A DNA stretch of 64,000 bases from Saccharopolyspora rosea (GTDB taxonomy: Bacteria; Actinomycetota; Actinomycetes; Mycobacteriales; Pseudonocardiaceae): contig NZ_CP102826.1 in assembly GCF_025643595.1 (NCBI RefSeq), positions 6,448,001-6,512,000 of the forward strand. The letters run 5' to 3'. The notes below the pieces were generated by a model. The model saw nothing but the letters and a program-made list of their open reading frames with translations. It had not been told where the DNA came from and did not search any database. The position numbers were made by a program, and so were the translations under genes. Below, in pieces: positions 53,129-55,383 of this stretch; position 1 is the stretch's first letter; each line of letters begins with the position of its first letter.

Positions 53129-54511
53129 TTATTCCTGCGCCATGTCGACGAAGCGGCTGTAGTGCAGCTGGTGCGCCACGGTGATCGTCGACGTCGGACC
53201 GGCGCGGTGCTTGGCCAGTATCAGGTCGGCCTCGCCCATCCTCGGGTCGTCGCGCTCGAACGCGTCCGGGCGGTGGATCAGGATCACCATGTCCGCGTCC
53301 TGCTCCAGGGAGCCCGACTCGCGGAGGTCGGACAGCTGCGGCTTCTTGTCCGTGCGCTGCTCGGGTCCTCGGTTGAGCTGGGAGATCGCCACGACGGGAA
53401 CTTCGAGTTCCTTGGCGAGCAGCTTGAGGTTCCGGGAGAACTCGGAGACTTCCTGCTGGCGGGACTCGACGCGCTTGCCGGAGGTCATCAGCTGCATGTA
53501 GTCGACGACGATCAGCTGGATGTCGTGGCGCTGCTTGAGCCTCCGGGCCTTCGCCCGGATCTCCATCATCGTCAGGTTCGGCGAGTCGTCGACGAACAGC
53601 GGCGCCTCGCTGATCTCGCTCATCCGCCGGGCCAACCGGGTCCAGTCGTCGTCGCTCATCCGACCACCGCGCATGTCCGCCAGCCGGATCCGCGCCTCGG
53701 CGGACAACATCCGCATGACGATCTCGGTCTTGCCCATCTCCAGCGAGAAGATGACGCTGCCCAGCCCGTGCTTCACCGACGCCGCCCTGGCGAAATCCAG
53801 TCCCAGCGTGGACTTGCCCACGCCGGGACGCGCCGCGACGATGATCATCTGGCCGGGGTGCAGACCGTTGGTGACGGCGTCGAGGTCCGCGAAGCCGGTG
53901 GGGATGCCCTGGGACTCGCCGCCGCGGGAGGCGATGGCGTCGATCTCGTCCATCGTCGGCTGGAGGAGTTCCTCCAGGGCCGCGTAGTCCTCGCTGGTGC
54001 GGCGTTCCGTGACGTCGTAGATCGCGGCCTGGGCCCGGTCGACGACCTCCTCGATCGCCGCTCCCTCGGAGCCGTGGTAGCCGAGCTGGACGATGCGCGT
54101 GCCCGCCTCGACCAGGCGCCGCAGCACCGCCTTCTCGGCGACGATCTCGGCGTAGTAGCCCGCGTTGGCCGCGGTCGGGACGGTCGCGATGAGGGTGTGC
54201 AGGTACGGGGCGCCGCCGACCTTGAGCAGCTCCTGGCGGCGTTCGAGCTCGGCGGACACCGTGATGGCGTCCGCGGGTTCACCGCGCCCGTAGAGGTCGA
54301 GGACGCAGTCGTAGATCGCCTGGTGCGCGGGCCGGTAGAAGTCGTTGGGCCGCAGCACCTCGACGACGTCGGCGATCGCGTCCTTGCTGAGCATCATGCC
54401 GCCGAGCACCGACTGCTCGGCCGCCAGGTCCTGCGGAGGCTGCCGTTCGAAGGTGCCGTCCGCGGGCCCCTCCTCGGCGTAGTGGTCCTCCCGTTCGTCA
54501 GGCAGCGCCAC
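53129..54511 (-). CDS. dnaB: Replicative DNA helicase
   Basis: 460 residues, a full-length DnaB. The N-terminal domain (QDLAAEQSVLGGMMLS to about residue 135) mediates hexamer and primase contacts. The RecA-like motor has Walker A AARPGVGKSTLG, Walker B QLIVVDYMQL and the Arg-finger motif ISQLNRGPEQRTDKKP. No intein interrupts it, unlike some mycobacterial and actinobacterial dnaB genes. GTG at 54511 has GGAGGAGG upstream. The gene follows rplI in the same direction after a 419-bp gap with DnaA-box-like repeats. Confidence 0.97.
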   Translation of the reverse strand: MALPDEREDHYAEEGPADGTFERQPPQDLAAEQSVLGGMMLSKDAIADVVEVLRPNDFYRPAHQAIYDCVLDLYGRGEPADAITVSAELERRQELLKVGGAPYLHTLIATVPTAANAGYYAEIVAEKAVLRRLVEAGTRIVQLGYHGSEGAAIEEVVDRAQAAIYDVTERRTSEDYAALEELLQPTMDEIDAIASRGGESQGIPTGFADLDAVTNGLHPGQMIIVAARPGVGKSTLGLDFARAASVKHGLGSVIFSLEMGKTEIVMRMLSAEARIRLADMRGGRMSDDDWTRLARRMSEISEAPLFVDDSPNLTMMEIRAKARRLKQRHDIQLIVVDYMQLMTSGKRVESRQQEVSEFSRNLKLLAKELEVPVVAISQLNRGPEQRTDKKPQLSDLRESGSLEQDADMVILIHRPDAFERDDPRMGEADLILAKHRAGPTSTITVAHQLHYSRFVDMAQE

Positions 54512-54618
54512 CGGGACCTGTCACCTCCTCCAGCGCCGCGCGGTCAGCGATCACCCGCCGTGGGGCACACGCGTGCGCGGCGAAGCTAGATCACCCGCGT
54601 GGAGCAGGCAAGTCGAGC

Positions 54619-54714
54619 TGTGGATAGACCTCGGGACAACCTGTGGACAGGTTGAGGCCACTTGGGGACAACTGTGCACAACCTCCCGCACAGCTGGGGA
54701 CAACCTGGGGACAA
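54619..54714. promoter_or_regulatory. Cluster of DnaA-box-like nonamers between rplI and dnaB
   Basis: Seven same-orientation nonamers near the DnaA box TGTGGACAA or TGTGGATAA: TGTGGATAG (54619), TCGGGACAA (54631), TGTGGACAG (54642), TGGGGACAA (54663, 54695, 54706) and TGTGCACAA (54673). Five of the seven differ from the actinobacterial consensus by one base. They lie about 100-190 bp upstream of dnaB in the rplI-dnaB gap and could let DnaA control dnaB or titrate DnaA. Confidence 0.58.
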
Positions 54715-54863
54715 GTCCCGTGGATGCACGAGAAAGCCCAGGTCAGACGCTGCGCGTAGGCTGTGGAAGAAATCCGTGGAAAACTACGGCGCGTCGGGTG
54801 ATGCAGACGGGCCGCGAGCGGCCGCCGTTCGGACGCGGGCCGCGTGGTGTTGCGGACAGCGAG

Positions 54864-54908
54864 CGGCGTCGTCCACCCGTCACCCAGGTGTCCGAGTGGA
54901 CGACGCCG
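54864..54908 (-). terminator. Hairpin terminator of the rpsF-ssb-rpsR-rplI operon
   Basis: Perfect 13-bp arms CGGCGTCGTCCAC (54864-54876) and GTGGACGACGCCG (54896-54908), 22 nt beyond the rplI stop. No T-run. Confidence 0.75.
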
Positions 54909-54930
54909 TTGTTCTCGCGTGCTCAGCCGG

Positions 54931-55383
54931 TCACTGATCGCCGGTGACCTGGAGGTTGACCGTGGCCTTGACGTCCGGGTGCAGGTCGACGTCGACGACG
55001 TGCTTGCCCAGCGCCTTGATGTGGCCCCGCAGCGCGACCGAGCGCTTGTCCAGGTTCGGGCCACCGGCCTTGCGCACCGCGGCGACGACGTCGCCGGAGG
55101 TGATCGAACCGAACAGCTTGCCCTGCGGGGAGACCTTGGCGGTCAGGGTGACCGCGCCCAGGTCCTGCAGCTGCTGCCTCAGCTCGTGCGCGTGCTCCAG
55201 GTTGCGGACCCGGCGGGCCTCCTGGGCGCGCCGGATCGTCTCGATCTGCTTCTGCGCGCCCTTGGTCGCGACGATGGCGAAGTTGCGCGGGAGCAGGTAG
55301 TTGCGGGCGTAGCCGTCCTTGACCTCGACGATGTCACCCGACTCGCCGAGACCGGCCACGTCAGCAGTGAGGATGATCTTCAC
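54931..55383 (-). CDS. rplI: 50S ribosomal protein L9
   Basis: 150 residues, the usual two-domain L9: the N-terminal [19 protein letters not shown] with [10 protein letters not shown] binding 23S rRNA, a long connecting helix (about residues 40-75) and a C-terminal domain ending [15 protein letters not shown] at 55383 has AAGGAG at 8 nt; a longer frame to 55428 overlaps the gap and is rejected. It is the last gene of the rpsF-ssb-rpsR-rplI operon. Confidence 0.97.

Follow-up and report, generated by a model that had tools for sequence, protein, structure and literature searches.

In E. coli, the datA site is a cluster of DnaA boxes outside oriC that is not known to be tied to a replication-gene promoter, and in Streptomyces coelicolor clusters of TTGTCCACA-type boxes outside oriC, near the origin, reportedly restrain initiation (a 2006 study). 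The locus analyzed here resembles datA in being a box cluster outside oriC and differs from it in its link to the promoter of a replication gene; with the S. coelicolor clusters, which are described as restraining initiation, it has in common the box type and a position near an actinomycete origin. DnaA sites have also been described upstream of dnaB, which encodes the replicative helicase. In Mycobacterium tuberculosis, Rv0057, which lies upstream of dnaB, is bound by DnaA in vitro and belongs to a set of five regions with strong DnaA enrichment, and the homologous region of M. smegmatis is bound by DnaA in vivo (PMC7738170). An M. tuberculosis I282T mutant showed weaker binding there together with under-expression of dnaB, which is a correlation (PMC7738170). 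Predicted DnaA boxes also lie upstream of dnaB in Caulobacter crescentus, where dnaB belongs to the DnaA regulon (PMC8203912); Caulobacter belongs to a phylum unrelated to that of Saccharopolyspora. DnaA at dnaB is therefore already known in mycobacteria and described for Caulobacter, and we here add a probable instance in another genus. Like the mycobacterial site, which is bound both in vitro and in vivo, our locus is DNA upstream of dnaB, but the published description, in its available part, contains neither a phased same-orientation array nor a link to a -35 element (PMC7738170). That study was the sole report of DnaA upstream of dnaB in actinomycetes that we found in the open-licence literature, in the parts available, and we found no description there of a promoter-phased architecture or of its spread. 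What we add is a promoter-phased box architecture in many actinomycetes.

The window (the 64,000-nucleotide stretch of Saccharopolyspora rosea DNA that was analyzed) contains rplI and dnaB, both on the minus strand and separated by a gap of 419 bp (Table 1). Within this gap, at 54619-54714 and on the dnaB strand, lie six nonamers with at most one mismatch to TTGTCCACA or TTATCCACA and a seventh with two; none of the seven is a perfect TTGTCCACA. A sequence-only reading of this DNA had reported seven same-orientation nonamers between the two genes, and we found all of them, on the minus strand. Its statement that five are one mismatch from consensus is true when the consensus is TTGTCCACA, which is tabulated for M. 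tuberculosis and S. coelicolor as the box bound with high affinity (PMC4285127); measured against the E. coli form TTATCCACA alone, a single nonamer has no more than one mismatch. The array had also been placed about 100-190 bp upstream of dnaB; it is indeed upstream, but the measured distance from the GTG start is 108-203 bp.

Table 1 Features of the rplI-dnaB region, in window coordinates.
Feature	Position	Strand	Basis or remark
dnaB, replicative DNA helicase	53129-54511	-	ORF with GTG start at 54511; TIGR00665, E 3.4e-160; PF00772 and PF03796
Predicted -10 element of the dnaB promoter, TAGCTT	54583-54588	-	Conserved in 22-genome alignment; TAGCGT/TAGCTT-like in related families
Predicted -35 element, TTGCCT	54606-54611	-	17 bp from the -10; from alignment
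DnaA box 1, CTATCCACA	54619-54627	-	One mismatch to TTATCCACA; 7 bp between its end and the -35
DnaA box 2, TTGTCCCGA	54631-54639	-	Two mismatches; retained in most of the genus alignment
DnaA box 3, CTGTCCACA	54642-54650	-	One mismatch to TTGTCCACA; genus alignment
DnaA box 4, TTGTCCCCA	54663-54671	-	One mismatch to TTGTCCACA; genus alignment
DnaA box 5, TTGTGCACA	54673-54681	-	One mismatch to TTGTCCACA; not retained in most of the genus
DnaA box 6, TTGTCCCCA	54695-54703	-	One mismatch to TTGTCCACA; genus alignment
DnaA box 7, TTGTCCCCA	54706-54714	-	11 bp from box 6; nonamer invariant in 22-genome alignment
Two weaker box-like nonamers, TTTTCCACG and TCTTCCACA	54762-54783	-	Each with two mismatches; the surrounding block, upstream of the array, is conserved
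Main stem of strong hairpin after rplI	54864-54908	-	Fold of 54850-54935: -47.1 kcal/mol, z -4.6
rplI, ribosomal protein L9	54931-55383	-	TIGR00158, E 1.1e-38

The genome is a single contig of 6.56 Mb, on which the cluster occupies positions 6,502,619-6,502,714 of 6,562,638 and dnaA (TIGR00362) positions 1-1785, so that the two are about 62 kb apart if the contig is circular. A DnaA-box cluster in an intergenic gap could in principle mark a second replication origin or the relic of one. We consider this scarcely credible, because an AT-rich unwinding stretch is not apparent by composition and reading (G+C is 67% in the gap and 72% in the window, a measure of composition only), because the dnaA-dnaN context (dnaA and the genes next to it) lies at the contig start with boxes of its own and is absent from the cluster, and because the gap has a conserved predicted promoter instead. 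The strong hairpin that follows rplI may be the end of the rplI transcript, which points to dnaB relying on a separate promoter; the hairpin region (54850-54935) has no T-run and did not match the terminator pattern. A scan of 54400-55000 for consensus promoters and terminators returned no matches.

The cluster far exceeds what base composition would yield. We counted six boxes in the 419-bp gap, where 20,000 dinucleotide shuffles gave a maximum of three, and a 400-kb genomic sample, made up of 20 stretches of 20 kb each, likewise held at most three in any span of the cluster's length. That sample contained 60 boxes versus 57 matches to the reversed motif, which is background density. Under a Poisson model, about 5e-8 spans of this kind with six boxes are expected per genome. 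The shuffles and the 400-kb sample rule out chance clustering, and the excess over chance on which the sequence-only reading depended is borne out for the cluster. Counted over the whole genome (6.56 Mb), the nonamers gave a divided answer: perfect TTGTCCACA is over-represented (51 copies versus 14 of the reversed word), but TTGTCCCCA is not (8 versus 7), although three of its eight copies fall in the cluster.

We compared the gap among relatives by collecting loci through RplI, which matched in all 22 genus members, in 118 of 120 genomes from the family and in 195 of 197 from the class, as well as at 80 loci in named genomes; up to 30 loci were fetched per search, 156 in total. The dnaB start lay outside the fetched stretch in 31 of these, and the other 125, less three with gaps longer than 900 bp (L064, L137 and L159) and less identical copies, left 103 distinct rplI-dnaB gaps. 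All 22 Saccharopolyspora genomes carry three to six same-strand boxes upstream of dnaB, and at least three boxes were present in 87 of the 103 gaps, many of which come from close relatives, so that the counts are not independent. Together the 103 gaps hold 436 boxes that share the strand of dnaB and 49 that are oppositely oriented, against 20 matches to the reversed motif and 14.8 in shuffles. The array is thus conserved among related genomes. In the alignment of the 22 genus members, the conserved blocks are the pair formed by boxes 6 and 7 and the promoter-proximal trio.

Conservation of the boxes with dnaB weakens in distant families. Sixteen of the 103 gaps contain two boxes at most (L068 lacks them altogether), and six named mycobacterial relatives have just one to three (L129, L143, L148, L155, L160 and L163); the dnaB upstream region of Corynebacterium lowii (L187) has none. 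Twenty further stretches came from other families; 11 of them reach dnaB, six of these with at least three same-strand boxes upstream of it, and the other nine, with dnaB out of reach, lack boxes throughout the 700 bp that follow rplI. One contig, L102, whose gap DNA is the same as that of L048, bears the title Candidatus Melainabacteria but has a Pseudonocardiaceae-like rplI-dnaB gap with the box array; its genome is filed under the window's own family in the other genome set, and the record title looks wrong.

Genomes in which dnaB and rplI lie apart show which gene the boxes accompany. We sought a separated dnaB in 23 genomes, corresponding to 21 of the 31 loci above and the long-gap loci L137 and L159. 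Sixteen of them, including Amycolatopsis, Prauserella, Saccharomonospora and Thermocrispum, belong to the Pseudonocardiaceae (the named genomes by our own family assignment), and all 16 have three to six same-strand boxes upstream of dnaB (L167-L182); in the 15 of these that were checked, the 700 bp after rplI contain no box or one. The remaining seven, more distant genomes (L183-L189) have 2, 1, 2, 4, 0, 1 and 1 same-strand boxes, so that one of seven reaches three. When the 700 bp after rplI (542 bp for L156) were examined at all 31 loci with dnaB out of reach, 26 loci had no box, four had one, and L082, from one of the seven distant genomes, had four. Two DnaB paralogues (L190 and L191) have no boxes upstream. 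These results demonstrate that the boxes belong to dnaB rather than to rplI; conservation merely from adjacency of the two genes is ruled out by the genomes with other DNA between them. By contig coordinates, some 4-5 kb separate the two genes in 12 of the 16 genomes, and 1.8 kb in the Thermocrispum genome; the other three appear to have them on separate contigs or at long distance (at least 110 kb in Saccharomonospora saliphila). Because the separation is mostly about 4 kb, these cases carry little information on chromosome position.

The boxes are spaced by whole helical turns. In 129 distinct upstream regions, every one of the 645 same-strand box distances between 9 and 70 bp falls in the classes 10-13, 21-24, 31-34, 42-45, 52-56 and 64-68 bp, which are centered around 11, 22, 33, 44, 54 and 66, cover 42% of the range and were set after the data had been seen. 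The 645 distances share ancestry and are not independent events; the same classes recur in groups with different box sets. In the window itself, the box offsets 0, 12, 23, 44, 54, 76 and 87 fit a period of 10.9, and 25 of 5678 random seven-box placements were equally phased. With phased distances of this kind, all boxes of the array face the same side of the helix, which is what a DnaA oligomer bound to repeated sites would lead one to expect.

The phasing extends to the predicted promoter. From the alignment, we infer that TTGCCT-N17-TAGCTT is a working dnaB promoter. We searched the 126 upstream regions that have at least two same-strand boxes for TTGNNN-N16-19-TANNNT, allowing up to 60 bp between a box and the pattern downstream of it; the pattern occurs in 102 and is absent in 24. 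The distance from the nearest box end to the -35 was 7-8 bp in 43 of the 102, 18-20 bp in 49, 30-31 bp in seven and 40-41 bp in three, and shuffling the inter-box DNA produced the pattern at those distances in 4.8 of 126, a control for composition, not for ancestry, of a pattern that was framed after the sequences had been viewed. Three loci from other families (L197-L199) have the same layout at 19-20 bp. The boxes therefore keep a fixed relation to the predicted promoter, in four distance classes about one turn apart.

This relation bears on the idea that the cluster is a DnaA-titration or DnaA-inactivation site like datA, about 62 kb from oriC and beside dnaB by coincidence, whether as its sole role or as a side effect. 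Dense boxes near the origin (if the contig is circular) would suit such a site, and box clusters outside oriC that restrain initiation are known from Streptomyces. Titration does not require boxes in register with a predicted promoter, and we did not find them placed regardless of the neighboring promoter; they also stay with dnaB in 16 of 16 separated cases, an argument weakened by the separation of only about 4-5 kb in 12 of them. We therefore regard titration, which the sequence-only reading had offered alongside DnaA-dependent control of dnaB, as improbable.

Position relative to the promoter also distinguishes activation from repression. If DnaA bound the array to repress or restrain dnaB, as it does at dnaA promoters, the anatomy would be the same, and the last box does lie near the -35. 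Repressor sites, however, usually overlap or follow the -35 and -10 elements, and in the 22 genus genomes no box with at most one mismatch overlaps or lies downstream of either; the register with the -35 also shifts in one-turn steps. An array upstream of the -35 whose rotation is kept in steps of about one turn is an activator-like layout and less like that of a repressor. Autoregulation of dnaA by DnaA, described for several bacteria including Streptomyces lividans and slow-growing mycobacteria (PMC8203912), lends repression a precedent, but in M. tuberculosis I282T reduced binding goes together with reduced, not raised, dnaB expression (PMC7738170). We rank DnaA-dependent activation first and repression second, the latter being unlikely.

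We thus favor DnaA-dependent control of dnaB: the boxes keep register with the predicted promoter, they stay with dnaB when rplI is apart, and DnaA binding at the mycobacterial counterpart is published (PMC7738170). The cluster is probably the upstream regulatory region of the dnaB promoter, which DnaA binds and through which it activates dnaB. That DnaA would occupy the array is suggested by the mycobacterial data and the match to the box, and that it would activate by the geometry and one mutant correlation. About seven boxes, in one orientation and on one helix face, stop 7 bp short of the predicted -35; an oligomer of DnaA most likely occupies them side by side and would contact RNA polymerase at the -35 and raise dnaB transcription, such that the supply of replicative helicase would track the amount or state of the initiator. 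Initiator and helicase need to be produced in step. More broadly, and with confidence evenly poised for and against, we propose that across Actinomycetes a phased DnaA oligomer, docked at a fixed rotation to the -35, directly activates the helicase gene, that readiness for initiation would thereby also set helicase supply, and that the four distances, 11-12 bp apart, represent one docking geometry. The conserved promoter-phased array in many actinomycetes supplies an exact geometry, open to testing, by which DnaA might govern the supply of helicase, and it lets DnaA be studied cleanly as a transcription factor, away from oriC.

Elsewhere in the genome, direct pairs of perfect TTGTCCACA occur 19 or 21 bp apart at six places. 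One 19-bp pair (contig positions 1162684-1162711; L006/L237) lies upstream of a ComEA-like ORF, a name we assigned (the searched piece has an SLBB domain), and another (286194-286221; L007/L267) upstream of an Ssd/CpaE-type gene (TIGR03815); the rest are at 632293-632320 (L008), 6349988-6350017 (L005), 6403821-6403850 (L003) and 6540112-6540141 (L004). The L008 pair precedes an ORF that resembles CpaB by eye and matches no NCBIfam family. The pair upstream of the Ssd gene recurs, at 19 bp, in 18 of 21 genomes of the genus. Upstream of comEA-like genes, at 30 family loci fetched and scanned out of 59 genomes with a match, we found a 19-bp pair in seven, an 18-bp pair in eight, a 17-bp pair in one, wider pairs in three and none in 11 (16 of 30 with 17-19 bp). 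A competence screen in Micrococcus luteus recovered mutations in an HTH_17 gene and the adjoining cpaB (PMC8467076). It is possible that competence and Tad pili are under shared control by DnaA or another regulator.

Such pairs may belong to another protein, and two of them precede the ComEA-like ORF and the Ssd/CpaE gene; a regulator other than DnaA that recognizes a TTGTCCACA-like word might by the same token occupy the array upstream of dnaB. The pairs differ from the array in spacing and, in this genome, in being perfect TTGTCCACA, and in both M. smegmatis and M. tuberculosis DnaA itself binds upstream of dnaB (PMC7738170), which makes this explanation very unlikely.

Two other groups of boxes lie closer to dnaA or on the far side of oriC. 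About 65 kb on oriC's other side, at contig positions 67426-67536 (L010), seven box-like nonamers of mixed orientation lie near an ORF that we named transporter-like, a layout different from that of the same-orientation dnaB array. Finally, boxes TTGTCCACA and GTGTCCACA, 12 bp apart, are found at 6562491-6562511 (L001, 4492-4512); on a circular contig they would precede the start of dnaA by about 130 bp, which is the usual kind of place for dnaA autoregulation.
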